Source: Auricularia sp. M13
Taxonomy: Eukaryota > Basidiomycota > Agaricomycetes > Auriculariales > Auriculariaceae
DNA length: 64,000 nucleotides
Assembly (NCBI GenBank): GCA_037042915.1
Contig: CM073194.1
Location: 5,022,001-5,086,000 of the forward strand
Direction: 5' to 3'
This document shows, piece after piece, positions 21,181 through 44,785 of this stretch; within the stretch, counting starts at the first letter, position 1, and each line of letters begins with the position of its first letter. The translations under genes and the position numbers were made by a program. The notes beneath the pieces are model-generated. The model did not search any database. It worked only from the letters and a program-made list of their open reading frames with translations, and had not been told where the DNA came from.

Positions 21181-21208
21181 CATCGGTTAAACCCGGGATC
21201 GACATCAC

Positions 21209-23525: not shown

Positions 23526-24766
23526 ATGTCTGCTCGAGCCACTGCTTTATCCCAGTTTGACGTCCTCTATATGATCTCGAAGCAATTGACGCTCATAGAC
23601 GTTCTCCTGTACGCTGTTTGTCTCTCTGATGCGCTCCACGTGCTAATGAACATCTCTAGACCTATCCGCGTTTCCAGGTTGTGGGCGGACGTTTTTGAAG
23701 CTCGCTTGCGTGCCGCCTTCAATCCCGCCCACTGCTATCGAGGCTTTGTGCGCGACCCCGATGACTTCCGGCAGTTCATGGCCTATCGCGACATCATCGT
23801 CGGCGGACTACGGGCCTTGGACATGTTCGAGCCTTACGGGCACAGCATCGTCGATTGCAAGACGCCGCTGGAGGTTTACGCGCGGGACACACTAGGAGAC
23901 GAGGTATGCTCGTATTTCGTGCGACAGGGCTATAAAGTGGCACACGACAGCCGACTGCCGCGCTGGAGGCCGGCACCCGTCCCCGGCGCGTCGATTCATA
24001 GCCTAATCGTGTTCCCGACGCATGCCGGTTGGCCATACGTGAAGTATCTTGTGAGACTTGTGCTCGGTCACCGCACGGTTGAGATCTCGCTCGTGGTTGG
24101 GACGCCTCTCGTGGCTTTATTCAACTCTCCATGCAGTGCGTCTGTCCCTCATTGATATGCCATATCATTGTCTTACGAGTCTGCCTGTCAGCTGTTTCCC
24201 TGAATTTCTTCACATGGGACAGGGCATTTTGCATGTTTCCGATTGCTACGCTGCGTGAGCACCGTGGGATCTCTCGGAAGCACCATCGTGATCGCTCCGA
24301 ATTCTACTACGGTCTCGGCTTCGAATCTCTCCAGTGGCGCGAGCTAGACGGTCTTTACTTCAAAGACTCCCTGCCGACAGGGTACCGATGGGTTGGCGAC
24401 GGTCGCAGCTGGATAGCCCGCTTTCCTTCGCTACCCTCGATTCTGGAGCCTCCGACCCAATTCGATTGGCTCAGCAACGGGATTTCGCTACATTCTTCTC
24501 CTGTGCTAGGCCCCAGTCTCACGCCGGGAGCCATGCTGCTTACGGCTGACTACGGCTGCACGTTGCTGGACGAAGAGGCTTTAGGCGGCGATGCCTATGC
24601 TGTGCCCCCGTCCTTCGAGCAGCACGTCCGCTACCTTCTCCGACTCGAGGCGCGTGATAAGAAGGACGAAAAAACGCCGTCCTCGCGCTCGGACCGGCTA
24701 AACGCTTTAATCGATGGTTTCATGGAGGAAATGAGCGAAATTCCAGAGCTCATTTGGGGCGTTTAA
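23526..24766 (+). CDS. F-box-like / divergent NTase-like family protein, member 2
   Basis: Exons 23526-24135 and 24192-24766 with a 56-nt phase-1 intron give 394 residues. Its layout matches member 1 closely. An F-box-like start (FDVLYMISKQLTLIDVL, RVSRLWADVF) leads to DDFRQFMAYRDIIVGG, and VVGTPLVALF precedes the intron. After it come NFFTWDRAFCMFP, RWVGDGRSWIARFP and FDWLSNGISLHSS. The DxD pair is absent. The C-terminus is charged. Members 1 and 2 probably arose by tandem duplication. The function is unknown. The gene is intact and lies 280 bases upstream of the gene interrupted by the KDZ element. Confidence 0.75.
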
Positions 24767-25044
24767 CGCAAACTTCATGTTCGGTTTAACTCGGTGTACT
24801 GTTCTGTAATTACTTTCGGTCTTTGATCCTATAAAAGCTGTGGTTACAGCTCACGTTTGACGGTTCTGCGGCCGCTGAGATCCGCGAGCTCCGACTCTAT
24901 CGGAGATGAAACCTCGTGACTCGTGTAAACTCCGATTCTTGCCGCGTTTGCCTCTGATCTTCCCGCTCACGCGTCACTGGGCAACGTACGCTTCGGGACT
25001 TTACGCGCCTCGCTTCTACACTGCGACGGGGGCCCCCAGCGCAG

Positions 25045-25462
25045 ATGGTCTCGACCGAGTCTGCCGCGCTTGACGCGCAGCGACGTGACAGCGCCGGACT
25101 CGGGCCTGTGCCATCTACTCAAGTCATGGTCAGGCGCACAGAAACGTTTTCGCGCGACGATCTCGACGCGGATGACGCAGAGCTTGCAGCTGCGAATGCA
25201 TCTGCTCAAAGTCTTGCAAATTTGTGGGACTTACTTATTTTTATTTTTTTTTGGCCTGCTAATCGTCGACCAGATTTCCCGCCATTCGTGCTACATCACC
25301 CGTTGAAGACGTTATACAAGTGTCAAACGTGGACATTGCATGCGTCATCGTGGCGCGCGGCCTCAGTATCTTCGACGACGACTTGGACCCTGACCCAGAG
25401 CTTGTGGTGCCGGCGCGCGTCGCCCGTCGCGTCGTCACCCGCTCAATGATGGCCTCCGCTCG
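25045..25462 (+). pseudogene. 5' exons of the TET/JBP-like gene, cut off by the KDZ insertion
   Basis: An ATG at 25045 opens exon 25045-25223, followed by a 50-nt intron (GTGGGA donor, GCTAAT branch point, CCAG acceptor). Exon 25274-25462 then runs straight into the KDZ terminal repeat. The encoded part is acidic and Asp-rich (SIFDDDLDPDPEL), then basic near the break. Skipping the element and one copy of the 8-bp duplication, the frame continues exactly at 42572 into the gene at 42594-44698. The combined spliced length is 2349 nt, 783 codons with no stop inside. As it stands this stub reads about 17 codons into the transposon and stops. Confidence 0.8.
25455..25462. repeat. 8-bp target-site duplication (left)
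   Basis: TCCGCTCG directly precedes the left terminal inverted repeat and recurs exactly after the right one at 42564-42571. Eight bases is the duplication length known for Zisupton-type KDZ elements. Confidence 0.95.
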
Positions 25463-25688
25463 CACCCCAGGCAATCTGTTTGGGACCCCTCGGGCCCGTA
25501 GCCGAGACCAGTGATGGCTGACCCAAGGCCTCCATCAAATGACATCACCGTGTTACAAACAACATCAGCGGTCGCCGATAGAGCCCTGCACATCATTCTG
25601 GGATCGATACAGCGTCGCAGCGGTCGCCGCGAGCAGAATACTAGTGCAAGCAGTGGCGACACATATAGCCGCAATTGCACACGGGAAA
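25463..25688 (+). repeat. Left terminal inverted repeat of the KDZ element
   Basis: These 226 bases start with CACCCCAGGCAATCTG and are the reverse complement of 42338-42563 except for one base (25605). They contain two copies of the CGGTCGCCG palindrome core at about 25567 and 25619. Confidence 0.95.
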
Positions 25689-26004
25689 CGCACTGCTAGA
25701 AGACGGAAGCACTCTGGGAGTTGCATCACGGCAAGTTGACTACATACTTCAGCACACCGCCCGACATTTCGCGGTCGCCGCTCATGTCAGGATATATACC
25801 AAATCCTTGCATACAGTGCATCGTCTGTGTATGCTAGCAAAAATATAAAATCCAACGGGCGATGGGAGCGGCATGTCAATGCCACATAATGTATCTACTG
25901 TTGGATGTCAATCCCTAATGGCTTACTGCACATGTGTACTGAGACATAGTCCGGCACGGTGAAAAGACCAGAAAGGGTGGAACTACAAATAACACTGGAC
26001 ATAT

Positions 26005-26075
26005 GGATGGATAGCCTAGAGGTTAGGCACTCCGAGTACCAATGGAGAGACCCAGGTTCGATTCCTGGTCCAACC
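26005..26075 (+). ncRNA. tRNA-like sequence in the nested element, copy 1
   Basis: The 71 bases fold like a tRNA. The acceptor arm pairs GGATGGA with TCCAACC (one mismatch), the D stem pairs GCCT with AGGC, and the T arm is perfect (CCAGG, loop TTCGATT, CCTGG), giving a consensus B box GGTTCGATTCC. The anticodon arm has a G-U pair and an 8-base loop, one base too long, so I do not call it a working tRNA. It probably serves as an internal Pol III promoter. Confidence 0.55.
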
Positions 26076-26265
26076 AGACTTTTGAGACGTTCAATAGGTT
26101 ATGAGCCCCGTTAGCGCGTTGGTCTGGTCCCTTCAATAAGCCATTGGCTTGAGGGGGTGTGTTGGATGTCAATCCCTAATGGCTTACTGCACATGTGTAC
26201 TGAGACATAGTCCGGCACGGTGAAAAGACCAGAAAGGGTGGAACTACAAATAACACTGGACATAT

Positions 26266-26336
26266 GGATGGATAGCCTAGAGGTTAGGCACTCCGAGTAC
26301 CAATGGAGAGACCCAGGTTCGATTCCTGGTCCAACC
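26266..26336 (+). ncRNA. tRNA-like sequence in the nested element, copy 2
   Basis: This is identical to the copy at 26005-26075, 261 bases further on, in the second direct repeat of the nested element. It has the same defect in the anticodon loop. Confidence 0.55.
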
Positions 26337-27264
26337 AGACTTTTGAGACGTTCAATATCTACGTCGAGATTGGGCATTTGCGGTCACCGCGGATTGTAAA
26401 TGACATTAATCGCCTCACTGCCAAGCCCTAATCTACTCTCACCATCACCGCTGCGGACCATGCCCGAGGTAATGGTGAGCATGCAGAATGTATTTCCAGC
26501 ACTACACATCGTTCAATAAGCGACAGTAAGCACTTACTTGCACTGAGTAGATCGAACTCCAGATTGGCCTCACGGAACTTGCCTGCAATTCATGGCATAA
26601 CTTTCTGTGGTCCCGTGGTGGCGTATATGCGTTGTGATGCGGTACCACAACTTCATCGTGATGTTCTTGAATCACAATGTGCACAGCGGCGGCCGCGACT
26701 CCGCGAGTGTCTCGGGACTAGCCGATGACCTCATTCGCGGCGGCCGCGATGCATATCGGGCATCATCGTACGCTGTACCCCCCCGTGTTATCTAGTGTTA
26801 AAGCAATATAAAGAGCCGTTTCCTCGTACCTGCTGCATTCTTGCTACCCAGAGAGCTCCAAAACCCCAACAAACAGCGCCGCCTCCAGCCGCAACCACAT
26901 ATATGCCGGGACCGCTTCTTCGGTGCGCGTAGTCGTGGTGATTTTGCATTATCAAGGCCTTTTTACATCTCCGTTTGTAGCGGCCGTCCGCAGTCTGTTT
27001 GACGGACAAGCAGTGACTGGAATATGGCGGCCAGATTCGTCTCTTAATTCTCTCTCTGTCTGGACTTTCCAGTCGTCGCGCCGCCTACTGCTTCTACTCT
27101 TCTAATGCCTTTATGTGCACTCCACATATACATCGTGTGCAGCAGCAGCCCCAAGATACTTGTTACGGGCATAAAATAACAACAACAAAAGTTTCAGGAT
27201 TCATCGCTACCCTCTTACACTGTCCTGTCTCAGCCATTGTCGCGCCGTCGCCTGCTACCACATT

Positions 27265-27725
27265 CACAGGTGTGCAGGTCCCGTCGCCTACAGAGCCAGC
27301 TTTGGCAAACTTTATCGCACAAGCATTGCACAGAACTCGACTGCACTCTTGTGTCATGTTCGCCGCCTGGCTTCAGTACCTTCGAATGCGCGTGTCCACT
27401 GCTCGAGGGTCTTCAGGGTACCGGCCATCTCTCTCTGTCTTTCTGTCTGCAACGTTATGTATTCAAACAGGACATGCAGTGTCGTCGGCCGTGGGATGTT
27501 CTCCTTGCGGGAGACTAACTAGATGAAATAGGGGATGTGTTTTTATCGGCAGTGGATGCTCAACTACGTCCCATCTGCGCTGGCTGAGACCAAGGTCAAG
27601 GCACGACCAGGATACAATCCGTGTCGCGCAGCCATCGTCAAATACCACGGAACTGGCCCTGGATTGTCTCCCCACTCTTCGTAGCACTCGGTCGCACTCG
27701 CAGTCTCACGGGCACCTCAGCCAGC
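27265..27725 (+). pseudogene. Captured cyclin (PCL/PHO80-like) gene fragment, left copy
   Basis: The plus strand encodes a recognisable fungal cyclin box. First comes ALANFIAQALHRTRLHSCV with FAA, a region with RMRVSTARGSSGYR, and then CNVMYSNRT and VVGRGMFSLRE in another frame. In-frame stops and frame changes show that it is dead. From about 27460 on it is similar, with many substitutions, to 40930-41230 on the opposite strand. PCL-type cyclins bind Pho85-like kinases. Here a host gene piece appears to have been captured by the transposon. Confidence 0.65.
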
Positions 27726-28205
27726 ATTTCAGCGGTCGCCGCCAATCGTACGGAAAGACACGATCTTTGTCTCGCGGCGGCCGCGACGCATATCGTTGAA
27801 TGAAGTGTTTGTTAGCGGCGACCGCGTCCTCAATGTTCTACACCGGAGAACGGACTAAACTGCGTGTGTGTAACGCCTGGTAAACCACAACGTGAAAGGA
27901 AGGCTGATAGAAGTAATGGGGTCGCTTAAACGAGCCTGACGTTGAGCTCATAGACTCTAGCGGTCGCCGCGAGGGTAGCTTCTAGTTTTCACAAAGACCT
28001 GCGGCGGCCGCGCGCGACTTTTGCGTAACGAGACCAAATGATGATCATCATGTTGGTTGGAGAAGCTTGTTCACCGGAATGAACATTGCTAGAAAGGTAT
28101 CTTTACAAATGAAAAGCAAGTATTATTGGCTCAATCCAAGGATAAAAATCTACAAGCAAAGTTTCAACTGGTGTGCGCGGGGTCAGACAAAGAGAGCGTC
28201 GAAGT

Positions 28206-30319
28206 TCATGCAGTGTCAGGGGGGCGGCTGGACACTTTTTCGTAGAGATCGTCGAGGTCCTGAGGGAACTCGACACTCGAGGGCCAGGCGACCGCGAGGT
28301 CCTCGATGACCTTGCAATAGTTCTCGTTCAGTCGGCGGTTGGGGCGCTTGACATCGACGCTCAGTCTATTGAAGGCCGTTTGCACGGCCTCGGGCGCGAA
28401 CTGCTCGGGTACGAAGCGGAGCCATGCAGGTGGTTGGCCAAACGGCCTCTCCGTCATCTCGAGGGCAAAGCGCCTGTCTGCAGGGGGCAGGGAAGGAGCA
28501 CGCGCGGGTGTAGCAGCGCGGGAGGGGACCGCGACTTCCACAATGCGCTTGCCTGGCTTGCTCGGCGAGCGCGTGACGGAACGACCACGCTCTTGTGGCG
28601 CAGGCGTCAGGCCCGACTGAGCGGGTGCAACTGCCTCGGGTCGAGGCGTCAGGCCCGTTCCTGGCCTGGTATTTGCGTGTGGGCGTGGGGTAAGGCCCGT
28701 CGAATCGGCCTGAGCATTTCGGCCACGCGGCGTCGTCGGGTTTGCCTGTCCTTGCATGCGGGCCGACTTGCGCGCCGTGATGAAAGCAGCCTCGAATTCG
28801 TCCTCGTCGTCGTTGTCGCGGGGTCGTTTCGACGACGAAGATGCGGCACCGGCAGCGGACTGCGGCGCCGTCGCATCCTTACGGGCATGCGATGGCGCAG
28901 TTGCGGACCCGCGAGCAGCAGCCGAAGTGGGAGGCCGGGCGGGGGATGACGCCAGGGGGCGCGTGGGCGACTCAGCTGCCGCACGAGATGCCGCAGTGGC
29001 ACGGCGCGTCGCAGGTGCGGTGCTTGGCTCAGGCGGCGGCGCTGGTACGACTGTAGCTGCACCTTTCTTGCGCTTCGATGAGCTCGCAACGGGGGCGGCG
29101 GCAACGTCGTCTTCAGCAGGCATATCCACCTGCTTGCCCTTGCCCTTCGTCTTGCGCGAGTTTTTCTTCTTGGGTGCGCCAGGTGGAATGGCTTCGGGTG
29201 CGGGCGGGCGTTCATCGACCTCCATGGCTTCCTCGTCGCGCGCCTTGGCAGCTGCGGCCTCCTCCTTCGCGCGCTTCGCGCGCTCAGCAAGGATCTTTTT
29301 GCCCTCTGCGATCCGTGCCTTCGTCAATCGGTTCTTGTACTGTGCTTGCTCCGACTTTGACATCAGGCGTGCGTCCACGCAGAACTTGGGCCAGAAGCTG
29401 TCAGGGACGCCACCAGGAAAGCCCGGTGTGTCGCGGCCAGACGGGGGAGCCACAGCGCTGCAAAATCAAAGTTAGCTTGATTAGCACTGGATGAAAAATA
29501 TAACATACCGTCATCATCACCGTCAGGCTCAGGGCCAAGGTGATGCTCGACGCTGCGAGCACGGCTCACCGTTCGTGCCTCAGGCTTGCGCAGAATCGAC
29601 TGAAGAGGCGCCTTCGCAGGAGCTGGCTCGGGGGTCGCAGCGCGCGAATCGTCGCTCCCGCCAGCCTCGTAGCGCGTCCCGGTCTCGCTCGCGGCGGCAG
29701 CGGGCTCGCGGTCGACAGGGTCGTTGTCCTCCTGGTTGTCCTCCTCGTCGCTGCTGATCAGCTCGCGGTACTGCTTTGAGGTACGCCTTTTCCGCGGCTT
29801 GCTAGTGGCCTCACCAGGCTGTCGTGGCTCGGGTCCAGCGATCTTGAACTTGTAGACGTCCTTCATGACCTGTGAGCTTTCACGCATTGCGCGCAGCTCC
29901 TGTAGCGTGGGCGAGACGATGAGGTGGTCCTGCAGCGAGTAGGAAAGCATTCGCCCATGCCACGGCGAGTCTTGGTGGTCCACAGCCGTAGTGCGAAGAA
30001 CCGGGAGCGGTGTTGTGGGCACTGTGCGTTCTCCAGCAAAGAATAAGCGAGGGCCGAGCGGGTGAGGGCGCGTGGGGTCCGCGGGGTCGCGCATAGACAG
30101 CCACTGGACGACGTAGCTGGTCTCGAGCTTGCCGTAGCAAAGTAGACCCTTGTCGGTGTTGAGGCCGGGCGTGTAAGGCAGAGGAATTGCCCATGGGAAA
30201 TTTCCAATGCACAGGTCGTTGCGGTCGCACACAGCCAGGTGTGCGACAAATTGACATTCGCCCGGCCTGTTCTTAATGGGCGGGAGCGTGGGGTGTGCCG
30301 CTGCGAGAGAATAAGTCAT
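28206..30319 (-). CDS. KDZ-element gene, unrecognised Ala/Pro/Ser-rich protein
   Basis: The start at 30319 (MTYSLAAAHPTLPP) opens a first exon with a globular-looking N-terminal 150 residues (NFPWAIPLPYTPGLN, SYVVQWLSMRDP), then a basic and acidic disordered part (SSDEEDNQEDND). A second segment, 29457-28206, continues with FWPKFCVDARLMSKSEQAQY, a Lys/Ala-rich helix, and a long low-complexity region. It ends in LDDLYEKVSSRPPDTA. The obvious intron between them (GTATGT...TTTGCAG, 29508-29458) leaves the second segment one base out of frame, so there is either a non-canonical junction, a sequence error or a frameshift. A CGCGG-N3-CCGCG palindrome begins 4 bases upstream of the start. No domain was recognised. 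Confidence 0.55.
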
Positions 30320-30340
30320 CGTTCGCGGCGACCGCGAATG

Positions 30341-33300
30341 TCACGGACCTTCAAGGAGGGCGTTGATGACGTCGTTCCATATGGCCCCCAGCTCCCAGCC
30401 TTCATATTTTGCTGGGTCGGTGAGTCGAGGCTCGCTGTCGAGGTCGAGAAGCGCGCGCTCGATGGGCTGCCCGAGGAGCTCGGCGATCTCGACGAGATCT
30501 GCTTTGGACCTGTGTCGAGTCAGCTCGAACGACAGCAAATGGTTGTGGGCCTTTACATACTGGCAGTAGTTTGCGTAGGACCGCAAAAAGGTGTCCTCTG
30601 GAATCCTGAACATGTTCAGGAAACCGCGGGCCATTGGGGCCCAATCGGCAGCGATGAAACCATTGTCGGTGGTTGAGTTCTGTCCTGCGATGACGAAGGA
30701 GACCTGCAAGCCATAGCATGCCGCAAGATGGCTCTGCTACAGAGACGTGTTAATTACAACTGCATATGAACGACGAGTATGGCTTACAATGTCATGAAGT
30801 TGCTCCGTGACAGACCGAAAGTACTTGTCCATTTGGGCTACGGTTTTAATGGCCACGCCATCGGGAAATGCGTACGCGAAGCGCAGCAGGATGTGCTCAT
30901 AGTTTGCCATCGACTTGAATAGCTTCCACGCGTCGACTCGCGTCTGGCCATTAAAGTCGAACTCGTCCCGAACGTGCCAGTCTATGTTACCGTTAGCAAA
31001 GGACAATAAAAGTTAGTTAGAATACTCACGACCTGGCGGCATGCTGTAAAACTGCTGGAAGAGATTCCAGAAGCTCTCAGCAATACCGGTGCCCATGACT
31101 GCTTCGCGCAAGAAGCATTCGGGATCCTCTCCGAGCTCACGCGCGAAAGCCAAAATCTCCTCGCGGATTCGGCAGAAGAATTCGAAGATGCGGTTGGCAT
31201 CCTCCTCGTCGTGGCGGCGACGTCGCGCGACTCGTGCACGGGGGTTGAGTGGGTACAGCGGGTGCATGCCGTCCAGGATCCCGTCCTCCTCCGGGTTGCC
31301 GCTGCGCAAAGCTGCGGCCTGAACGCGGGAGCGCGCTTTGCCCGTTGCGTCGGCGAACTTGGCCCGAGGAGGTTGCGGCGAGCTTGGCCGCGCGGTCGCC
31401 GCTCCTGCAGACGTCGACGCGGCGTTGGCCGCTGCGGCATTGGGTGTACTGCCTGACGCCGCCGGTAGCGTTGGCAGAACGGCGGCGGTGGCAGCAGGCG
31501 GCTGGACGATGTCTCCGCTGTCCTGGACATCGTCGAAGTCGTTGTGGGTGTCGTCATGTTCGTATCCCACAGGCTCGTCGCGATGCTGTCCGACTGACGT
31601 GAGCGGCGCTTGGGCGCCAGGCTGCACGAGCACTGTATCGCGCGGGTTGACTGTGCGTGTGCTCGGAGAAGGCGGGGGCGCGCTCTGCGTCCATACCGCG
31701 CCGGACGACGCGGCAGGTGCAGCCCGCGGCGACCGCGCGTTACGCAACATGTTGAATTTTTCCGCAAAGTTCGCGACCGCGCCAGCCACCATCTCCCGGG
31801 GCTTCATTGGCGCCGCCTGCTCAGCCTCGCGGTGTTGGAACATCGTCCGAGAAGCTGTAAGATTGTCAGTGTCTGGCAATACAGCGTCCTATACACGATC
31901 CACTCACGATCGGGAAGATACTGCCCAGCATCGTGATTGAGCCACTCAGGGTGGCCGCTTGGTCCATGTTGCTGGGGCGTTGGCTGGAAGACGCGGTGCG
32001 CGTAGTCTCCATTGGCCGCCGGTGGGACTGTGCAGAGCGGGGGCGTTTTGACCCGGACGTCGAGTGGGCGAATCAGAGCGGCAGCGTCGGGAACCCAGCG
32101 ACGCAGGTCATTTTCAATGGCCTCCAGCTGGCCGACGGTGATACCCTCTACAATGTCCTTAAGGCGTGCAGAGACCATGGCGCGCAGCCGCTCGTCTGGA
32201 ATGCCGCCTGAGCGGACGATTGTGTTGTGCCACAGCTGGTAGCGAACAGAAGCATCCCCGCCTGGGCAAACGCCGGAATTGGTGAGGGTGCCCGTGGTTC
32301 CAAAGGGCGTGGATGCGCGGGCACGTTGTAAAAGTGACCACCGGGCGCAAGCGCATCCGAGTCGTGCAGGCCGACGCGGGCAGACGCTCCGGGCGGATAC
32401 CGCATATGCGCAGGCACCTGCGCAGAGACAGCTTGCGCAGGGCCGGCTGTCGAGGCCTGGGCATACGCGTGTGCGTTTCCGCCCGTGTCAGGCACTGGTT
32501 GATGCCCCGGGTATGCCTGCGCGATTGGGGCGTTGCCAGGGAGGAAGGCCCCGCCCTGCGCGTTGTGGGTGCCTGCCACCGAGCCGCGAACTGGGTGTGA
32601 GCGCTCTGGGGCATTCGGCGGCGCCTCACGCTCATATGTCGACGTGGCCTGTGGCTGCATGCTGATGTGGGCGGTGGCAGACTGTCCCAGTGCATTCTGG
32701 ATCGGTGCCAAACCAGGCGGCATGGCCGGCGGCGCGTACATGACAGGCTGGTTGTGTTGCATCGGCGCCGGCGTCCCAGGGCCATGAACAGCCTGGGCGG
32801 CAAAGGGTGGGTACGCATGGGAAGCGGTGGGTGCAGCACCCATAGGCGGGCCCATAGCGGTATGCTGCACTGAGGCCTGTTGGTCGTATTGGGCGGCTGG
32901 TGCAGTTTGCGTGGTGTGCGCCACGCTGACCGGCGCGTTATGCTGCGCCGGCGTCGAGGCGACCGCATGTAGCATTGGCGCCGGGCCGGTACGTGAGTAC
33001 GGGACATCGGCGCGAGCACTGTGCGCCGCTCCAGAGCCCCAGGACGCGCCAGGAGGCGGTGCTGTGGGTGCACGCTTGGCGTGTGCCGAGTTGAAGCCCG
33101 GTGCGGATGGCGGAGGGGCGGTATCGGGACGCGACCTGCGCACAGGACCGTTTGGCGGGGCTGAACCGGGCGCGGTGTCAGTCGCAGCGGGCGGTTGAGT
33201 GAGGCCCAAGGGAGGTGCTTGTGCTGACGACATCTGCGCGCGATGCGCCTGAAGCGCGGTGTCGGCGCGCGGAATGGCCGCGTCGTGTACTGCGCGCATT

Positions 33301-33403
33301 GCCAGAGGCTGCCCTACGGCCTGACTGGTGTCTGGAGCTGCATCTGGACGTCAATGTATGGCGATAGCAAGAGTGTATCACGAAACGTACCAGGCTGAGC
33401 CAT
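30341..33403 (-). CDS. KDZ-element gene, unrecognised protein with Pro/Ala-rich N-terminus
   Basis: The start at 33403 (MAQP) is followed by a 40-50-nt intron and a long Pro/Ala/Gln-rich exon. An intron of about 80 nt near 32330-32250 leads to DASVRYQLWHNTIVRSGG. Further exons carry GQLEAIENDLRRWVP, RTMFQHREAEQAAPM, FEFFCRIREEILAFARELG, FWNLFQQFYSMPPG, HVRDEFDFNGQTRVDAWK, LLRFAYAFPDGVAIK and finally FVIAGQNSTTDNGFIAADWA, ending at 30341. Junctions near 31880, 31010 and 30735 are canonical and in frame. The C-terminal half is helical and conserved-looking but unknown to me. It starts 15 bases downstream of a palindrome copy. It is likely element cargo needed for transposition or regulation. 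Confidence 0.6.
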
Positions 33404-34852
33404 CTGCGCATTTTCGTTCGCGGTCGCCGCGACGAGTCCATACGGCGCCTAATCGTCGCTGAAATCATTTTGGGAGCTCTGCGACGGTCTGTATTAGGCA
33501 ATACCGTTGGGCGGTGCGTGCCTACTCACAGCCATATCTTGCGGTTGGATGCTGTTAAGCGCGAAGCAATTGAGCAAGGTACGGAAGAAGATCGTGTTGC
33601 GGACTTGCAAACCGTGGCGCGCGCACAACAATGTGATCTAGGACAATAACACTCTGTTCCTTTGTTGCTCTGGGGCGTCGATCTCCAGGAAAAACTCTTA
33701 TAAAACCGCTCGAAGGTAACACAGAATTGCAATTCATTACAGGGCTTCGCATTGTGGTCTCATAGCATCTGAGTGGTCGCGAAGATAGCAACCTTTTGCT
33801 AGTCGTTTCCTCTGATATGCGAACAGTACTCCCATCTCCCTATACAAGTAAAGTGCTCTACATTAATTATAAACTCAGTGTTATTTCTGAAGTGCAACGA
33901 GCTCACAACTCCTGTAGCGCGTAGTAGCATTACACACTCGCACATGAACTTTTCCTCAGCCTGGCACACCTATTCCCAGGTAATACCCGTTTGGATAAGG
34001 CTTGTAAGGCCGCTTTATACGTATGGAAAGCTGTCTGTCGCACGCCAAGTCCAAGGATGAGCAGCGTGAGGCCGTCTCAATGCGCGTGCGTAGGAGGCGT
34101 CGCAAATGCGTTGCAGACCAAACCACCTTTCCCTTCACCAAGCGGGCCTTTCGCACTGCTCAAAATGCTAAGCATGCTTTGAGCTCTTCATATCCTACAG
34201 TATGTTGCCGCGACCACAGAACGTCGTACAGTGTTCATTGGTAGCTGGGGGAACACCTTGGGCAAAGGTGGCTATGGTCTACATCTTGTAAGGACCTCAA
34301 TGTAGTGAGGGCTGCATGTCACTTTGCTCAGGAGGTGCTCCAAGTATTATCACCCTGCGGGCATTTAAGGCCTGCAGATGAATGGATGTATGGAATGGTG
34401 GATGGTTTCAGTTTTGACGGCGACTTGCGTGACCTCACTGGTTGGCGCAGCGTGTTCACCGTCAGTGAACGTTCTCAAACGCTCGGACGTGCTTTGCACT
34501 GTACAAATGGCGCATGGCTCTCTATCTGAGGTGCAAGCAAAGGGCTGACGCAGAGTGGGAAATAGTCGCAGAGACTACATCCTGGTGTTCGTGCGACGGG
34601 CATTCAATCGAGGTCACTCAGTCTCCGTGTCGCCCACTTTCATTACAGTGCATTCACAGCTACCTCATACAAGCCGCCGGCACAGCACAGTACTCCCAGG
34701 ACCTCGTAAAATGGAGGCCAGCACGATTCGGTTCAAGCAACGAGGTCAATTTGTCGAGGCAGGCCAATGTATTCATTATCATGTCGTTCACCTGCTTGAT
34801 TGCGCGTGTTCTCCAGTGTGCAGACTGAAATAATGGAAAGATCGAAACAGGA
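33404..34852. other. Stretch of the KDZ element without a supported gene
   Basis: Short plus-strand frames at 34023-34244, 34305-34529 and 34555-34833 have some basic, coding-like composition. They share no clear splice chain or domain, so I do not call a gene. One palindrome copy lies at 33418, just before the neighbouring start codon. Confidence 0.35.
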
Positions 34853-36148
34853 CTAGTCATTTGGGCCGTGGACAGCATACTTGAGAGCTAAAGTACAAAG
34901 GCCGCGACGGACACGCGGCATATCGTCTTCGACGAGCGATGTAACGCGTTTTCCGCTGAGCAGCGCGGCTATGCACGTTAAGACCCACAGCCCACAGTCA
35001 GAGCCATTGCTCTGGCTCGCATCCGCCTGTTTTCTGTGAGCAGGACACCGCAGACCATGGCGAGCATAACTCACAATCATTGGGCGTGTTTTCCATTGCG
35101 TGGGAAGCGACGGAATGCTGGGATCCCGCATGTGCGCGTATGCCGTTATCGACCGAAAATATCGAAACACTGTCTACAGAAACAGTCAGTAACAGCGTGC
35201 AAAAACGGAACACATGTGACCTACCAACGCGAGGGCACGGACACGATGCGGGCGAGCAAGACTATCGAAGATCTCCACATATCCGTGCCTTGGCCAAACG
35301 AGTGCGAGAACCCAGTGCGTGTTTTGCTCATTCATGGGAACGATCACAGCCTCGCGATCCCAGATGCGAAGGCTTGCGACACGCCGATACTGCTCGGCTA
35401 CACTCATGCCATCTTGGTAGCACGTCATCTCGTACGAGCTGAGCATGCAGAAGCGATGCAGTCGCAAGGGATACTCGCGCGCAATCGCGGACGCGGCGAA
35501 GTTGAGTGCCTCGTCGTTAAGCCACCGCCCGGGCGTCCTCAATCGCGCCCACGATTCACTGGACAGCATTATGCGCGGCAGATGCATTGTGCGCTGTAGC
35601 CAAAGGCTGCCGGTGATGGGCGATTCGTTCGCGGCGCCGCGATGGCGCATCCAACTCGGGCCAATGGAACACATGCTTAGGGTCGGTCTGACTTACATGA
35701 GTACAAAGACAATAGGTGGTACCACTTGTGCGCACCTCGACATACTCAAGGCTCTCGAGCTCGCAGGACGACGCTCTGGGAGGCAATGGACCTTGGACTG
35801 GGTTGCTGTTGAACGGTGTGCCATCCTCGATGTCATCGTCTTCACTGCAAGTCGTCTCGTCGTCCGAATCGTCGGAAATCTCGATAATGTCGTCCTGATC
35901 GTACGGCTTGCGTGGGCTGGCAGTGCGCGCCATTTCCTCGAGATCGTCGTCTTCGTCGCCGAAATCCTCGCAGTCTGTGTCGCCTGGTGACACGGTCTCG
36001 AACTCGCGATTTCGTTGGCCTCCGCAAATCGAACGCGTCGGGTGCGCGAAGGAGACTGCGGTGGCGTCGGCTGACCAGAAACGTCGAAATCGAGGCCAAG
36101 CGGCGTCGGCGGACTCCGAATGGATTCGCGGCAGCCGCGGAGATCCAT
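34853..36148 (-). CDS. Ulp1-type (C48) SUMO peptidase-like protein of the KDZ element
   Basis: Several exons join in frame. The N-terminal part carries PTPPQSPSRTRRVRFAEAN, then a strongly acidic piece with DDIIEISDDSDDE, a textbook SUMO-interacting motif. The peptidase domain begins at about 35560 with RLRTPGRWLNDEALN. It contains the catalytic His in NTHWVLALVW, Asp in EIFDSL, and after two more introns the Gln and Cys in QSNGSDCGLWVL. The stop is at 34853. All catalytic residues are present, so the peptidase looks intact. The same minus-strand frame is open from 36352 down through the start at 36148. It joins the degenerate tail of the KDZ transposase, so the two may form one fused protein. 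Ulp1-like domains often accompany KDZ elements. Confidence 0.75.
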
Positions 36149-36273
36149 GCGAGCGAGTCGATCCCGCTCCTTTAAAAGAAATGGCAGATATAGCTTATCT
36201 GACCGTATGTAAGCACAGGATGTAAGTTGAATGAAGGAATACAACGCACAGCTTGGGTCTGCGCAGGCTGCGT

Positions 36274-39200
36274 TTAACGCAGCCAGCTCGCTTCGTGCCA
36301 ACGCAGTAGGTTTCCGGTCTCTCGGTCGAGCCGTTTGACCTCCTCCGCACAACGCTCGAGGGTCATAACAGCTCGAATGCCCTTGCGGACCGTGTCATCA
36401 ATGAGCCAGGCAGGCGCTGGACCTTCGTTTCCTGAAATATAAACGTCTTGCATGAGCGTCGTTATTTTTGAGATGCTTCAGCTCGGTGGAAAGCGGCTGC
36501 GGCAGTGGAAAATTGCTGTCCATAGGTCGCAGTCTGGTGAGCCGCTCGCAAAGCTCGTTGTACGTCTTTATTGCGCGTTGGATCGTCGGGGTACGCTTTT
36601 TCATTGCAGCAATGGTCCGTGTATGGATGCTAGTTCCTGAAAAACAGTCACGCCTTCACAAAGAGCTGATTACAAGATCATGGCGTACCAACGGGCATTC
36701 CCCTGCCTCCCTGAGCGCTATCAATTATCCGCCACTCCTGAAAGCGCCGCTGCAATAGCAGGCGGCACGTTCTTTTGGCATCGTAAGCCTGCAGAAGCAC
36801 TGCAGTAAACTGCAGGCCCATGCCCCGTATCTCCTCAAACTCCTGGTCAATGTGGAGTGTCGCGTATAAGGCCTGAGCCTCGCTGAGTAACTCTGCCTGC
36901 GAATTGCGAAGCTTGCGTATGCACCGATTGGCTGCCATAGTTGCCTTGCGCGATCCGCCACCGACAGTAGCTTCGGCGCCCGCAATTGCATCCTCGAGCG
37001 CATCCGCCTGCTCCTGCAACGTCAGAACGGCTTTCAATGAGTTCTTCAGCTTGGTTGTGGGATCTGAAAGCAAGTTATGCACAAGGAAAGCAGATAAGTA
37101 CGGTTCGTGCGCGTACGGTTACGAATAGATAGTTCAGCTGTCCGCTGATCCTGCCATTGCGCTGCAAGGTATTCCCGCGAGTGCCCGCTCGCTGCAAGCT
37201 GTTCAGAGGCAGTCGCGACCTTTTTTGCGATCGCGCCCCGTCGCCGGCGAAGCCATTTGCCCTGATCGTGTCTCATCCGCTTTGCTAAACGTTGTAGTTG
37301 TCGGTCCAGAAGAACAAGGCGCCGTCGTCGCTATGATGGAATCTCCATCAGTACAGGCATAAGGCGTCCTACAATGTGCAACATACCGAAACTGCGCGCA
37401 ATTTTGAGATCATCATCCGTAGCGCGGACCACAGGCGCTCGACGCCTTCACCGTCTGTTAGACCCATCCCTCTTTTCATGCGCGGACTGTAGACGAGCTG
37501 GCAGGTCCACTGGTGCGCGTACGAGTGCATGGCCGACGTGACGAAGACAACTCTGTCACTGAAGCCGGCTGGAAGAACGTCATACTGCGGGGGATGTTAG
37601 TCGCGGTCGCCGCTAAACTGTAATTTCACGAACGAGCTGCCTGGTACGGTCTGTGATGCAGCCCACGTCGTAGTATGCTGCTACAGTGGCCATTGGAGGA
37701 AGATGCTCCGAGAGCCAGTCCAGCGGTTAGCATGAACTTCTGGCCCTCGCCCGCATCCGTGATGTTCATGAAACATAGCGGGACGCCGTGACGGCATATC
37801 AGCGCAAAGACGCCAGTGTCGTCAAACCGCTCGCCATTCGCCTTTGCCTTTGATGCTGTTCCGGCTGTGTGCGCGTCTTCGCAAGCGTCCAGGTCTTCCT
37901 CCGGGACGCCACCTGTGTATCGACCACGGGGGCGCTTTCCTGCGTCCTCCAAACGGGCTTCCATGGTGGCCACACGCTCAGGCGACAGCTGATAGACGCC
38001 ACGATACTTGAATGGCGGGCAGTCGCCGGCTTTGAAGTCGTGACGCTGTGAAAAATTCGCATCGCCGCCAACGTGAAAGTCGCATCCTCTGCATCAGATG
38101 AGCGACCATAAATGCTAAATGGAGGCCACATACTCATCCAACCCACGTCCAAAGTGCTCCTCGTCAAAGCACAACGCGCAGCATGACACAAGATACTCGC
38201 TACAGCGGTTTCTGTTCGGGTTTGGACCGCCATATGCAGGCCGTTCTACGCGAGGTTTTGTATCGTCTGTTGCTGGAAGAGGAGTGTCCCCGGATGCCGC
38301 TCTGCCGGCCCCTGGTCCATGGGGTGAATCGGGTGGGGAACGTAAGCCCGTGGGCGCTTCATGAGGTGGGTGAACACGATCTGCTTCCAGTGCCGCCCAG
38401 GATTCCGCCCATCGTCGTTTAGCGCTCACGATGTCCTCGATGTCGTTCTCGATATGACTGCGAAGAATGTCGTACCATTGGATTGCGTACTGCATTGGCC
38501 TCCGGTAGCCTTCGTGAATGAGTCTGCCCTGTGTCCTGTTAATAATGGGCCTCAGCAACAGAACTACACTCACCTTAGAATCTTTTAGGATGAACCCTAG
38601 GTCTTCATGGAAACCGTGAAGCGCTGCAGCGGCAGCCATGGCAGAATCGGCGGAATGAAACCACAGGTGGTAGTAAAAGTCGAGGAGCTTTAGCGAGAAG
38701 GCGTAGGGAGGGAGGTCCGGGGCGGATGGGAAGAAGCCTCGCGCGACAAGCTGCTCTGCCAGGCCATTGTGCGGGCAGCAGAGGAAGTGCTGCTCAGTGT
38801 AGCCTGCACCTTTGTGAGTCACAAAAACAATCATTGCAGGAAATGAGACTCACGGTCCCAGTCCACACATAGGACGCGGCGGAGGCTCTCCCGACAGCCT
38901 GGAACGCTGCAGCGGCAGTATTGAGGGGGTTCCTGTCCGGCCATGAAGGCGAGCAAGGGCTTGCGCAGGTTGGGTATAAGGTCGTCCCAGCGCATGTATA
39001 GACGTTCCTTCTTGGCTGTTGGGACGCGCTTGACGCGTTTAATACGTCGGGGCGGTGGTAGGTGCAGTTTGAAAACCGTTTGCGCTGTTGGAGGTGGCAT
39101 TTCGCATTCGTCGGCCATAAAGATATCGTCGTCGACGACCGCAGAAGAAGCGGGCCGGCTTTGCGCATTGCTGGGTACGGCCTTGCTTGGGCCAGAATTT

Positions 39201-39373
39201 TCGAGCGCAGCGATGGGCCCACGTCGTTGCCCTGGCATTGGTCGTGCAATTTTATTCTTGAACTGAAGGACGCGGCGACTTGGAGGAACAATGTAGACGC
39301 CAGCTGGGGCAGCCTTTCGAGCGTACGGTGCGCGGCGGCGGTAAAACGGAATAACAGATGGGGCCTGGTGCAT
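36274..39373 (-). CDS. KDZ transposase (probably frame-broken)
   Basis: The start at 39373 gives a basic N-terminus, then the CxC1-type region (YCRCSVPGCRESLRRVLCVDWD, then FLCCPHN and GFFPSAPDLPPYAFSL). Downstream are CSEYLVSCCALCF, the first catalytic block GGDANFS, then FDDTGVFALICRHGVPL, YYDVGC, HSYAHQWTCQLVY, and GLTDGEGVERLWSAL with the catalytic Glu. It ends with a helical tail (YNELCERLTRLRP, AWLIDDTVRKGIRA). These are the family's usual blocks in order, and introns of 45-60 nt fit. Three places seem to need a frame change: about 37720-37727, about 36450 and about 36290. They may be real mutations, making this copy dependent on a helper, or sequencing errors. The RNase-H-like transposase would cut and join the element's ends. 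Confidence 0.85.
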
Positions 39374-39640
39374 GACGAGAGCGCTGGAGGGAAAGCGAGG
39401 CGGTCAAGATTGCCGGACGCAGCGACGAAAATTGTAAAGAAGCGCTCCGAGGAACGGAAGAATCCATCAAGTCCTTCTCCGCGGCCGCCGCGAACGATGC
39501 GTCAGTGATCCGAGGCTAGTGTCGCTCGCGGTCGCCGCGACCATGACAAGCATGCGACTCAGTATGTTGCAGCGCATACCGCACAGGTTAAACACTCCTG
39601 GTAATACCGATGGCTAGGTGCAAACGATGATAGCTTCGTT
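39374..39640 (-). promoter_or_regulatory. Upstream region of the KDZ transposase with two palindromes
   Basis: Two copies of the CGCGG-N3-CCGCG palindrome lie at 39480 and 39526, within 160 bases of the transposase start codon at 39373. No clear TATA box is seen. Together with similar placing before two other genes of the element, this suggests a common control element. Confidence 0.4.
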
Positions 39641-39675
39641 CGGAGCTGGTAACTGTAAAGAGCGAACGTGACCTT

Positions 39676-40470
39676 GTCCACGAAAACTGTTGATAATATG
39701 AGATGGTTGTTCCGAGGGGATGCAACGGGAGGTGTGTGTGGTATGGGAATATCAAGTCTGAATTGAAATGCAGTAGCCAAGAAGGGTAAGAAGTAAAGTT
39801 AGGAACAGCAAAGAGTTGGGTCTCACACCGAGAGCCGCTGGGGGGGGGGGCGGGGGCAGTAGAATGTCTGAATCGCACCACGAACGGTGACGCCTGTGGC
39901 TCAGGCGCAAGCATCGTTTGAACAACGCACCTTTCAGCGGATGGATACACGGCGCGGTCGCCGCTTTCTCACGAATGATGTCCGTCGCGGCCGCCGCGGA
40001 CAACGTCCCTATGAGAGCTTGCAATCAGCGGCGACCGCTAGAAAGGGCCTTGGCGTCAGCACGTTGAGTCGCACTGCTCATCGTCGGACCCGGATTGGCA
40101 ACAGCAACCCTATGCACGTTTGCGATTGTATTGACAGTCGCTGGGCGGAGAGAACGAAAGAATATAAGCACCTCTTGACGAGATGCTGCAGAACGCGACG
40201 AGACGATGGAAAGGGTACGACATGGCGTGGATAGGCAGGTAAGGGGGAGGGTCGTGGTGGCGTGACTTGATTTCTTCCATGAAGAATTGTTGACGATATG
40301 AGATGGTCGTTCCGAGCAGAGTAAGCGGAAGGAGGAGCGATACAAAGGTAGGTAGGTGTGCGCGGTATGGGAATAGAAAGTCTGAAGGTAAATGCAGTTG
40401 CCAAGAAGGGTATGAATGAAGATATGAATAGCAGAAAGCGTTGGGTCTCGCGCCGAGAGCCGCGTGTCGC
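39676..40470. repeat. Diverged duplication within the right arm of the KDZ element
   Basis: About 165 bases at 39676-39842 (ACTGTTGATAATATGAGATGG to GGGTCTCACACCGAGAGCCG) recur in altered form at 40282-40470, with small insertions. Both lie downstream of the cyclin piece and suggest repeated internal duplication. Confidence 0.6.
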
Positions 40471-41285
40471 ACCGCGTCGACGAAAGCGCCGCTCGTCCTC
40501 CAGAATGCAACCAGGGCACCGTGTCCGCTGGTTGACGAGGCGAGAGAAGTCGCGCCCGTGGATGGGCTGGCGGACGAGAACATCGCCGAGGCCGTCTTCT
40601 TCGAGCTGGCGATCGAAGTCGTGTCATCGTTTGACGGCGGGGTGACAATGACGGCAGAATGAAGCGACGCCGTTGAGGAATGAGAAGAAGCGGGCGTGTT
40701 GGGCGAATCTGGCGGCGACGACCGTGCTGCCGAGAGAAGTCGCGCCCGTGGATGGGCTGGCGGACGAGAACATCGCCGAGGCCGTCTTCTTCGAGCTGGC
40801 GATCTAAGTCGTGTCGTCGTTTGACGGCGGGGTGACGATGACGGCAGAATGAGGCGACGCCGTTGAGGAATGAGAAGAAGCGGGCGTGTTGGGCGAATCT
40901 GGCGGCGACGACCGTGCTGCTGTCCCTGAGACTGTGAATGCGAGTGCGAGGGCGTATGCGACGACGAGGGAGAAGACGAAGCAGAGCCAGTTCCGTGAGG
41001 CGCGCTGACGATCGGGGGGACGACGGGTGCGCGACGCGGGTTGTATTCTTGCCGCACCTTGACCTCGAATTCCGCGAGCTCGGATGGGACGACGAAGTTC
41101 ATCTTCCACTCCAGATAAGAACACATTTCTCGTTCCATCTGCTTGATCTCCTTCAAGGGGAACATGCCCTGGCCGACGACACACCAGGACCTGTTCGAAT
41201 ATGTGTCGTTGCAGACCATCAGAACATGGTTCGCAGGGCTTCGACGCTCCAGCAAGACCGCGCGTTCGGTGCAGCATAAAGACAA
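40110..41285 (-). pseudogene. Captured cyclin (PCL/PHO80-like) gene fragment, right copy
   Basis: On the minus strand, CNDTYSNRSWCVVGQGMFPLKE followed by MEREMCSYLEWKMNF is the second half of a fungal PCL-type cyclin box. It is followed by a Ser/Pro-rich tail typical of these cyclins. The first half of the cyclin box is missing, so the piece cannot be functional. A 190-bp tandem duplication lies in the tail. It is the inverted counterpart of the more decayed copy at 27265-27725 near the other end of the element. Confidence 0.65.
40541..40920. repeat. Tandem duplication of 190 bp
   Basis: The unit 40541-40730 is repeated at 40731-40920 with only a handful of substitutions. It begins CGAGAGAAGTCGCGCCCGTG. 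It lies inside the captured cyclin tail and is a recent duplication. Confidence 0.9.
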
Positions 41286-42337
41286 CCGGGCTCTGTAAAA
41301 CTCAGATGCAATGCGGCCCGCTCAGTGGAGGCGCTGTTCACAGTGTTCGGAGAGCAAACGAACGTTAATATGAATCCTGCCGACATCCTGTGACCATAAA
41401 ACACATTTGCGGACTGCTGCTGCATCCAGAAATGATTGAAGAGTATTGAAATGGCATATCCTACATGTCCGTACGCGCACAAGAAGAAGGTCGCGCCATT
41501 TCCGTGGGGTCTTGGACCCTATCCTGTCCAAGAACTTGCCGGCTGGGGAGGATCGCGGCCACCGCGAAAGGCAGAACCGCCTTTTTCCGACAAGAACGCG
41601 GTCGCCGCGAAAGACAAAACCGGCTGTTTCCGACGGGATCGCGGTCGCCGCTGATTACGTCGTGATTCACAGACACCACGATGCGGTTGCCGCGCTGCTT
41701 CAAGTGGTGCCCATCTCGTACGGCGCCTCAAGCATATTCTTTATTCGCTCTTTAGACGAGCTTCACAAATAGAATTTGGTTTGGTTCTGGAAAATCTGGA
41801 GTTCGATCATGTCGATATCTTTGTGTTCGCTTTCCAAGTAACGTCGTGGTATACTAATGGGACATATAGGAGTTAATCTCATGTATCCCATGGATGCATT
41901 TTGGTGTGTCCAACCGACAATAGAAGACGTCATTGCTTCCACCACAACGTACCTTCCGATACCAATGCCACAAAATGCGTGGCTATCCTTATGAGTCAAC
42001 GTGTGGGATATGCATATCTGACCAATATATGGATGAAATGGCGATGTGAACAAGGCTTACAATAAGGCGATTACGTCGATTTACCATCTGCGGTGACCGC
42101 AATTGCAGGGTTTCGACGAGCCTACATCATAATCGAATTGGCCTGCCTTCCGTTGGCTTGTGGATTCTCAAATGCTTGCAACCATGAGCGCACAATGATA
42201 CATATAAAACGATTTCTAACATATAAGCGCTTCAGCGGCGACCGCGAAGGCCCAGCCGTCGCACTGAATTATAAACACGGGCTACCTCAATACTATCACC
42301 AGTGTGCTCTCGTCGTATCGTGAGCTATTTGGCGGTA

Positions 42338-42563
42338 TTTCCCGTGTGCAATTGCGGCTATATGTGTCGCCACTGCTTGCACTAGTATTCTGCTCGCGGC
42401 GACCGCTGCGACGCTGTATCAATCCCAGAATGATGTGCAGGGCTCTATCGGCGACCGCTGATGTTGTTTGTAACACGGTGATGTCATTTGATGGAGGCCT
42501 TGGGTCAGCCATCACTGGTCTCGGCTACGGGCCCGAGGGGTCCCAAACAGATTGCCTGGGGTG
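42338..42563 (-). repeat. Right terminal inverted repeat of the KDZ element
   Basis: This is the reverse complement of 25463-25688 with one mismatch in 226 bases. It contains two palindrome copies, at about 42394 and 42448. Confidence 0.95.
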
Positions 42564-42571
42564 TCCGCTCG
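42564..42571. repeat. 8-bp target-site duplication (right)
   Basis: TCCGCTCG follows the right end of the KDZ element and equals the eight bases before its left end (25455-25462). Confidence 0.95.
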
Positions 42572-42593
42572 CAAGAGCCTGAAACGACCGTTA

Positions 42594-44698
42594 ATGCCAA
42601 CGCCACGACGCAGCTCTCGAATTTCTGGCCATGCTGCTGAGTCCGCGAGCGTGCTCGAGAGTCCTACGCCTAAACGCCAACGCACGGCCCGAGCACCACA
42701 GACATTGTTGATTCCCAGATGGGAGTTTCATCACCGTGTGCACCCGTCACCGCTTGCAGGAGCGCCCAATCCGTCATCTTCTACACTTCCGCCGTCCTCT
42801 CCGCCTTCTCTCGACTTCATCAGCCCGCCGCCGCTTATAGCTACCTCGGGCTCGCAGGCCGACGCTCCGTTCAGCGCAGCTTCGTTATCTTCAGCTGTTT
42901 CCGGTCCTCCGACTCGCGGCGGCAGAACGAGCAGGCGGAACGCTGCAAGGCGTAGGCGCGCTGCAGCCAGCATGCCAGTTTCGACGGCAGCATCCTCGTC
43001 TTTATCAGCGCCCCCGTCGTTCGGCTCGCCCCAAATGCGGTCGCCCAAGTTGACGCACTCGACGCCCTGTGGTTCCGATACTGCCCTCGCCGCGCCTCGC
43101 CTGCCGGACATTCAGTCGCGCAGCTTGTCGAATTTTGCGTTCACTTTCGAGATCATGCCCGTTGTCAACGACCGCAAGCGGCAGAAAATGTCGAAAACGG
43201 CAGCTCGTCTGCGCGGCAAGCAGTGCAACAACGCAATACCGTCCACGCTGCTCTCGCCCGATTCATCGACATCGGTGCCGACTGCCCATTCCACAGGCCC
43301 TGAAGTGCAAGTAGAAGAGGTTCAGGACTTCGGCACGAAGGCGCGCGGTCGATACCATCACAACGAGCAGTATTACAATCAGCGGCGCCGCAAGTACTAT
43401 GCGACTCTTGTGGTCGAGTCTTTCGTTCCGTCAGCGGTCCCCAACGCATCCGGCGACTCTTATGCATTGACCATAAACCAACTGAACCGTAGCAAACCGG
43501 GCTGGCAGGGTGCAGTCCCTCGTAAAACAATTCGCGACGTTATAGCGGTCTGGGACACGCCGCGCCTTCCGGAACTGCTAAAGGACCTGCTTCTTGTTCC
43601 TTTTCATGGCCTGAACACGATTGTGTGCGACATGCACGGCCGTGCTGTTGTCTTTCGCTCTACTCCAGTGTCAGATCACGGAGACGAGGACTTGGTCGAC
43701 CTCTTCAGCCAGGACTGCTTAGACTTCGCAAGCAGCTGCCCAGTGCCTGATCGCGACCGCGAGATGAACAGCCGAGGACAGCACTGGGCTTGCATTTGCG
43801 GTGCTCATCGTCAGTTCGCCAAGGTACGTTTCTGCCCTTCCGATGCTACAGTACTGAATGCAATGCCTTAGAAAGCATACCGTACAAAATTCCAGACGAA
43901 GTACAACGACCGCATATGTGCTTTATTCCGACGTGGCGGTCCTGCTTTCCGCCTTACGTGAGAGTGCAGTCAAGCGAGCTGTTGCGTCTGTCTGATCTTA
44001 TTTGCAGCCAATATCTTACCTCCTTGCTGCGCGAATGTTTCCCTGCCATTGTGGCACGCATGGAAGCGAACCATCGATGGCATCGGCAAAACACAAAGAA
44101 CGACGCTCTCCCGCTCGAGCCATTGTTCGGTCTGTTCTGGAACTTCTGCGTCAATGTACCGACCCCCAGTTCTGGCGTGAAACGCGTGTTCTGCGGACCT
44201 CATGCAGACCAGAAAAACGTCGCCGTGCTCTTGTGCGCCATATTCGTGTTTTGGCCAAAAGGTGCGTTTCAGGTTGTGTGGCTGTCGTACGAGCCACTCA
44301 TACGCGCAGACGCGGTCGGCGAAGACGAGTGGTCCTGGCTAGTCATCTGGGAGCTAGGCATAATTCTGCAGTGCCCCCGAGGCTCTTTTATTATCTATCC
44401 TTCGGCGCTGCTGTTCCACTTCAACGTTCGCATTGTGAAGTGCAAGAAAGGCTCGCGCCCAACCCCGGATAACTCGGAGGAGATTGCTCTGGGCGACGCG
44501 GCCGGTCGCGGAAGTGCCGTCTGGTTTACGCAGGCATCCATGCACTCCGTTACTGATGAGCGCGATCCTGCAACAGGCCACCTACCCAACTACGACCGAC
44601 TTGCGCGCGAATGCTTCCCCGTAATTGTGCCCGCGTCGCCTTTGCCTGATGATGCACTAGAGCCATGCCCTGAATCATCTCTTCTAGACGAATTGTAG
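42594..44698 (+). CDS. 2OG-Fe(II) dioxygenase-like protein, fungal TET/JBP type (5' end lost to KDZ insertion)
   Basis: Exons 42594-43823, 43872-43957, 44008-44261 and 44310-44698 join in frame and give 652 residues from the first ATG after the transposon. The N-terminal half is basic and Pro/Ser-rich, perhaps DNA-binding (PTPRRSSRISG). The C-terminal half matches the Agaricomycete TET/JBP-like family. It has the iron-binding His-x-Asp in CGPHADQKNVAVLLCAI, then WLVIWELGIILQCPRGSF, the distal His in PSALLFHFNV, and the Arg-containing strand GRGSAVWFTQASM. TET/JBP enzymes oxidise methylated or thymine bases in DNA; whether this one does is unknown. The original frame extended 5' to 25045. The dioxygenase core is untouched, so expression from a promoter in the terminal repeat would still give the enzyme part. 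Confidence 0.7.
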
Positions 44699-44785
44699 CG
44701 GCGAGTCGATTTTGATGAACATGATTCTGCTCTGTTCGGCTACCAGACACAAAATGCTATTGGACTGAATGCATCGATATACAAT

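Follow-up and report, generated by a model that had tools for sequence, protein, structure and literature searches.

The 64,000-nucleotide stretch of Auricularia sp. M13 DNA analyzed here (the window; C2:5022001-5086000 of a 52.1-Mb, 14-contig genome, in which relatives of its features were read directly) contains a KDZ transposon inside a multi-exon gene. The insertion itself is real and well resolved. We consider it very probable that this cut-and-paste transposon, which is Zisupton-like, landed within exon 2 of a gene that a resident Helitron2-like rolling-circle element carries as cargo, and that the locus is a set of nested mobile elements. What had been supposed in a sequence-only reading to be the disruption of a host gene is, on this account, a cleanly resolved nesting of mobile elements.

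The insertion and the interrupted gene

The KDZ transposon is bounded by two 226-bp terminal inverted repeats (TIRs) that differ by one mismatch and form the sole inverted pair of at least 40 bp in the window (14-bp seeds). The 8-bp sequence TCCGCTCG adjoins both outer sides and is found nowhere else on the window plus strand. These repeats and the duplication had been placed correctly in the sequence-only reading, as had a KDZ transposon within a multi-exon gene, and the Pfam KDZ domain (PF18758) scored 52.8 bits against a cut-off of 26.6. A search with one end of the transposon gave 13 matches, two of them being the ends of this element itself and the remaining eleven lying at six further loci. 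Both ends were readable at five of those loci, making six elements with the window included, and each of the six is flanked by its own perfect 8-bp duplication; on the basis of these duplications the element ends are CACCCCAGG...CCTGGGGTG. The seventh locus, C1:2336096, showed one end and no partner in the ~17 kb that were read.

With the KDZ element and one copy of the duplication removed, five predicted exons spanning 25045-44698 form one 798-amino-acid frame plus stop, with no internal stop. The upstream exons thus continue in frame at 42572, as had been claimed; the joined gene stands, and the earlier count of six exons and 783 codons differs slightly from the five exons and 798 amino acids given here, both structures being predictions. 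The description of the insertion as frame-preserving was true but uninformative, because omitting the element and one duplication restores any target. Homologs lacking the joined upstream exons had been named as what would count against the joined gene: the upstream exons are joined at 6/6 paralogous loci of the same genome, at each of which one tblastn segment crosses residue 123 (the insertion point), so the upstream and downstream exons are parts of one gene. The C10 paralog is likewise interrupted after residue 60, by an intron of similar length. Read from its original start, the window gene reaches a stop after 139 codons, at 25512, inside the left repeat, and this copy would therefore make no full-length protein. 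The part 3' of the KDZ element is still open and would be producible solely from a new start, for example the in-frame ATG at 42594. The proposed course of events is that the KDZ element moved, probably recently, into exon 2 of the Helitron cargo gene and left an 8-bp duplication, as expected from staggered transposase cuts.

The two closest paralogs are those on C10 and C9, whose catalytic regions are 64% and 59% identical to that of the window gene. Comparison of the interrupted gene with C10 over 726 codons gave a pN of 0.328 and a pS of 0.756 (saturated), and the cargo gene family is, as judged from this pair, under purifying selection. The other paralogs vary in structure. Paralog L030 carries ~1.6 kb extra, farther along, and the C3 paralog has ~2.3 kb between its matched parts versus the ~0.7 kb expected; a second insertion was considered for the latter, in which just one weak 16-nt inverted pair was found. 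The diverged paralogs L031 (C6) and L032 (C4) have KDZ matches within 7 kb and possibly reside in other KDZ elements.

The Helitron2-like carrier

The interrupted gene is carried by a Helitron2-like element (Table 1) and is therefore mobile-element cargo rather than an ordinary host gene. The uninterrupted Rep-helicase open reading frame (ORF) matched DUF6570 (6e-38), Helitron_like_N (4e-27), and PIF1 (2e-19). On the basis of this ORF and of the asymmetric terminal inverted repeats, which read TCACC(R)ACTCC / GGAGT(Y)GGTGA, the element is classed as Helitron2-like. The repeats are TCACCAACTCC (5') and GGAGTTGGTGA (3') in the window and TCACCGACTCC (5') and GGAGTCGGTGA (3') in the closest relative, on C10; in both elements the 3' inverted repeat is followed by a GCCGC/GCGGC stem and then CTACGR. 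Assignment to Helitron1 was rejected, as its 3' CTRR terminus was lacking, with CTACGR, then T, present at 13/13 3' ends read. A T also precedes 5/7 of the 5' ends starting TCACC.

The 5' end had 12 matches in the genome, that of the window included, and the 3'-end pattern had 34, versus 0 for a reversed control. Each of the twelve 5' ends has a downstream 3' end in the same orientation, 1.4-44 kb away (our pairing), and the remaining 22 3' ends are without a partner in the 5'-end list. Ten of the twelve paired elements measure only 1.4-4.1 kb, which indicates that these ends move on their own. In all eight elements read at both ends, one of which starts TAACC rather than TCACC, the 3' repeat carries the counterpart of the variable base in the 5' repeat.

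Helicase relatives were ranked by identity among the 26 of 59 candidates that were scored. The closest were C10:3386852-3392269 (68%) and C9:1488895-1494067 (57-70%), followed by a group at 45-47%, and it is in these two nearest Helitrons, between the helicase and the 3' end, that the two closest paralogs of the interrupted gene lie. The DNA of the window and C10 is collinear over 11306-55309, not continuously but in blocks of which some are short and weak, and the similarity ends at both limits. A Helitron2-like element of 27 kb, with several conserved genes as cargo, is delimited at both ends, and this large element with its conserved, unannotated cargo is the new part of our results. The cargo regions at 19248-20535 (no Pfam family above cut-off), 23517-24766, and 47275-47829 matched no Pfam family. 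Toward its C terminus (18000-19099), the Helitron protein has by eye the look of a cysteine protease (deubiquitinase-like) domain, and that region is without a Pfam match.

Table 1. Coordinates of the Helitron2-like element, the interrupted gene, and the KDZ transposon in the window
Feature	Position	Strand	Basis or remark
Helitron2-like element	11307..55310	+	44,004 bp; 26,895 bp without KDZ element and one target duplication
Helitron 5' end, TCACCAACTCC, and terminal hairpin	11307..11359	+	paired bases 11309-11359; hairpin -14.1 kcal/mol, z -4.4
Helitron Rep-helicase ORF	11909..19102	+	2397 aa, no internal stop; Pfam
Helitron cargo gene, first copy	19248..20535	+	two overlapping open frames; 46% and 44% aa identity to C10 Helitron
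Helitron cargo gene, same family, second copy	23517..24766	+	first frame 48% aa identity to first copy, 42% to C10
Interrupted gene, exon 1	25045..25223	+	break after residue 60, as in C10 paralog
Interrupted gene, exon 2, 5' part to insertion	25274..25462	+	
Target-site duplication, left	25455..25462	+	8 bp, TCCGCTCG
KDZ transposon	25463..42563	-	17,101 bp; transposase genes on minus strand; ends, target-site duplication, Pfam domains
Terminal inverted repeat, left	25463..25688	+	226 bp
Second KDZ gene region, several conserved open frames	28206..32487	-	relative C1a, 67-100% aa identity
Ulp1 (C48) peptidase domain, two open frames	34856..35692	-	Pfam 3.9e-9 and 6.3e-5
KDZ transposase domain	37372..38093	-	Pfam KDZ 5.5e-14; second half at 37387-37560
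CxC1 cysteine cluster of KDZ transposase	38118..38849	-	Pfam 9.3e-8, above cut-off
Cyclin-like gene remnant carried by KDZ element	40113..41321	-	homologous to C1a cyclin
Terminal inverted repeat, right	42338..42563	-	226 bp
Target-site duplication, right	42564..42571	+	8 bp, TCCGCTCG
Interrupted gene, exon 2, 3' part	42572..43823	+	in-frame ATG at 42594
Interrupted gene, exon 3	43872..43957	+	
Interrupted gene, last exon	44008..44698	+	PHADQKN (HxD), later H
Further Helitron cargo gene	46725..47829	-	46725-47703 67% identical in DNA to C10; C9 with two shorter blocks
Further cargo frame	48036..49066	+	collinear with C10 Helitron, blocks partly short, weak
Further cargo frame	51843..52832	-	as above
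Further cargo frame	54013..55178	+	as above
Helitron 3' end	55279..55310	+	inverted repeat GGAGTTGGTGA, stem GCCGC/GCGGC, terminus CTACGA

The cargo protein and alternative readings

The catalytic regions of the window gene and four of its six paralogs were aligned (alignment A1), leaving out L031, whose intron was not cleanly removed, and L033, in which most of the catalytic region is missing. His250, Asp252, His322, and Arg352 (assigned by eye) are invariant in 5/5 members, the first two within PHAD or PHSD, an HxD motif. The resulting HxD...H...R arrangement fits a 2-oxoglutarate (2OG)-Fe(II) dioxygenase, and the cargo protein is, by pattern only, dioxygenase-like; it would be a 2OG/iron dioxygenase-like enzyme that served the Helitron. 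A single-sequence structure model of the last exon had a pLDDT of 38.5 and was not usable for judging the double-stranded beta-helix fold.

The sequence-only reading had called the gene TET/JBP-like and saw in the insertion a conflict between a transposon and a host DNA-demethylation gene, or a case of reuse. The reality of the insertion and the continuity of the gene agree with that account, as does the HxD...H...R pattern, and the genome has both genuine Tet_JBP genes (27 matches, four above cut-off) and 149 KDZ match pieces. The similarity searches speak against it. Alignment A1 gave no Pfam match at E values up to 10, with 0/5 members matching Tet_JBP (PF12851), no match among PDB sequences, and one chance match only in NCBIfam, and its hhalign probability against the genuine TETs of the genome was 0.09%, both alignments being shallow. 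The search does work, because the positive control (alignment A2, built from six of the 27 genomic Tet_JBP matches) matched Tet_JBP with 6/6 members and the structurally solved CcTet at 1.3e-13. None of the 27 matches is the interrupted gene or a paralog, and the gene lies between Helitron ends; two other KDZ members also sit in apparent mobile-element ORFs. We therefore regard the disruption of a host TET/JBP gene as quite unlikely. These comparisons do not support a TET/JBP identity of the cargo gene; a distant relation is conceivable, as TET kinship can escape sequence search: in PMC12730594, PE-type TETs give an HHpred E value of just 1.4. The PE type, which is described there as having HxE in place of HxD, does not fit, since 5/5 A1 members have HxD.

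Could 11307-55310 instead be a host segment duplicated between chromosomes, flanked by Helitron ends by chance? The block is long (27 kb without the KDZ element), it holds several genes of unassigned function, and four paralogs of the interrupted gene lie elsewhere; set against this, the terminal repeats mark where the similarity to C10 begins and ends, the 5' and 3' repeats match within every element read at both ends, the helicase is inside the block, and the short paired-end elements show the ends to be mobile alone. We judge such a duplication very unlikely. Several observations nevertheless count against the assignment of the gene to a Helitron. The matched repeat base takes two states only (A/T in three elements, G/C in five), which implies few independent changes; the stability of the 3' hairpin did not exceed that of shuffles (z 0.85 and 0.43); and the last collinear 3' block is weak alone (E 0.011). 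The C9 gene is inverted relative to its helicase, and the C9 5' end was not found. Neither a Helitron helicase match nor a 3' end lies close to four of the six paralogs (C3, C4, and two on C6), so the gene family also occurs outside recognized Helitrons, and the three helicases at 45-47% identity have no listed gene copy nearby. Finally, that the 25045-25462 exons belong to a different gene is scarcely credible: the junction region is poorly conserved among paralogs and a chance agreement of frame would arise one time in three, but a single similarity segment crosses the site in 6/6 paralog loci and C10 shares the break after residue 60.

Insertion of the KDZ element into Helitron cargo, which we prefer to these alternatives, leads to a bolder proposal. 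Outside the PU, AG, and PE types, the cargo could represent a fourth lineage of DNA-modifying dioxygenases carried by transposons, of HxD type and selected as protecting the Helitron from silencing, in which case the KDZ element would have disarmed an anti-silencing gene. We hold this to be conceivable but doubtful.

The KDZ family and comparison with known systems

The six elements with both ends readable comprise the window element (17,101 bp), two 16.2-kb copies on C1 (C1a and C1b; 16,196 and 16,203 bp), a further C1 member of 10,814 bp, and elements of 4,890 bp on C7 and 4,891 bp on C8. Kyakuja identity was ruled out by the TIRs and 8-bp duplications, as Kyakuja families have 7-bp duplications and no TIR in the account of PMC12730594. 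The same two features fit Zisupton or Dileera, and Zisupton-like is our designation for an element that may belong to either, as 8-bp duplications are likewise known from Zisupton-1_PGr, a Dileera family. The C1a and C1b copies are 99.83% identical and have different duplications; their near identity indicates that this branch moved recently. The window element shares with C1a DNA blocks of 69-88% identity, mostly in opposite orientation, and a KDZ stretch with 97% protein identity. The frames of the second KDZ gene region have their best matches in C1a, with one stretch at 40% amino acid identity, and none of the four frames scanned had a Pfam match. With GCGGTCGCCG and its complement counted together, the window has 19 occurrences of this sequence, 19/19 within the KDZ element; 200 Markov shuffles of that element averaged 0.1.

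Both C1 copies carry a gene for a Pho80/PCL-like cyclin near one end (in C1a at L034:1844-2746; Cyclin_N 5.3e-10, PDB PHO80 3.8e-4). Related, apparently broken cyclin pieces lie near both ends of the window element in opposite orientation, at 27017-27523 (+) and 40113-41321 (-), the latter with a weak Cyclin_N match (0.023) under the cut-off and containing a 190-bp tandem duplication (97%) at 40541-40920. Two tRNA-Arg(ccg)-like genes (26004-26077 and 26265-26338) stand 261 bp apart in a duplicated unit near the left end of the element; the pair is possibly a tRNA-derived short interspersed nuclear element. The smaller relatives have the same ends. Those on C7 (C7:2876949-2881838, L038) and C8 (C8:3319494-3324384, L039) are 4.9-kb fold-back elements with 8-bp duplications and 2,373-bp inverted arms of 99.2% and 96.8% identity, respectively. 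The inverted repeats of the 10.8-kb member (C1:2153068-2163881; L040, L041) are identical over the first 400 bp and nearly so to ~750 bp, and its DNA in common with the window element amounts to 66 bp per end (E 1e-5). At the left window end, the region 428-1609 holds a CxC6 cluster (8.4e-12) that belongs to a second KDZ transposase.

The ORFs interrupted by the 16.2-kb copies have homologues that are found together within one and the same ORF, up to 2,945 amino acids long, on several contigs, and one of them has a weak gag-protease match (0.0029) under the cut-off; the ORFs hit by both copies look like one long terminal repeat (LTR)-retrotransposon polyprotein family. All three elements above 16 kb with both ends thus appear to sit in ORFs of other mobile elements. 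We offer this as a description and not as a proven preference, because there are three cases only and long ORFs cover a third of the sequence. A preference for coding targets was likewise considered, 4/6 sites lying in stop-to-stop ORFs of at least 250 amino acids, and is unsupported because ORFs of this kind take up 33% of the window sequence outside the element. The six target duplications are GC-rich (35/48 bases; P 0.011, uncorrected), a weak effect.

In the literature searched, which left most subscription journals outside, no paper combined Helitron, KDZ, nested, and basidiomycete. Only PMC12730594 brought Helitron, dioxygenase, and KDZ together; judged by title, none on fungi joined Helitron and Zisupton with nested insertion, and none described capture of a cyclin by a KDZ transposon. 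Like the Zisupton/KDZ transposons of PMC12730594, the window element has KDZ and CxC domains, TIRs, and 8-bp target duplications; it differs in holding none of the Tet_JBP matches of the genome and in the cyclin-like gene that is present in it and its relatives. The carrier resembles the fungal Helitron2/Helentron elements of PMC5148889 in its Rep-helicase ORF, asymmetric terminal inverted repeats, 5' hairpin, and a 3' repeat ~21-27 bp inside the 3' end. It differs in size and cargo from FoHeli1 and 2 (reportedly 5-6 kb, versus 26.9 kb without the KDZ element and several cargo genes) and in its CTACGR terminus from the Fusarium Helitrons, which are reported to end in ATTTT. HELPO1 of Pleurotus ostreatus (PMC4289320) similarly has one to several "captured" genes of unassigned function downstream of the helicase, whereas the ends of the P. 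ostreatus Helitrons are of Helitron1 type (CTRR or CTTG). TET/JBP genes of the PU, AG, and PE types are carried by fungal transposons, including a Helitron2 of Agaricus bisporus (PMC12730594), and the dioxygenase-like gene on the present Helitron2-like element is a parallel case. It is distinguished from the PE type by HxD without the HxE hallmark and from AG-type TETs by having no sequence match to them, a comparison that covers AG-type sequences. This unannotated dioxygenase-like cargo family, apparently under purifying selection, is a candidate for activity on DNA, and if that activity is real, the range of base-modifying enzymes carried by transposons would exceed the three types of PMC12730594.

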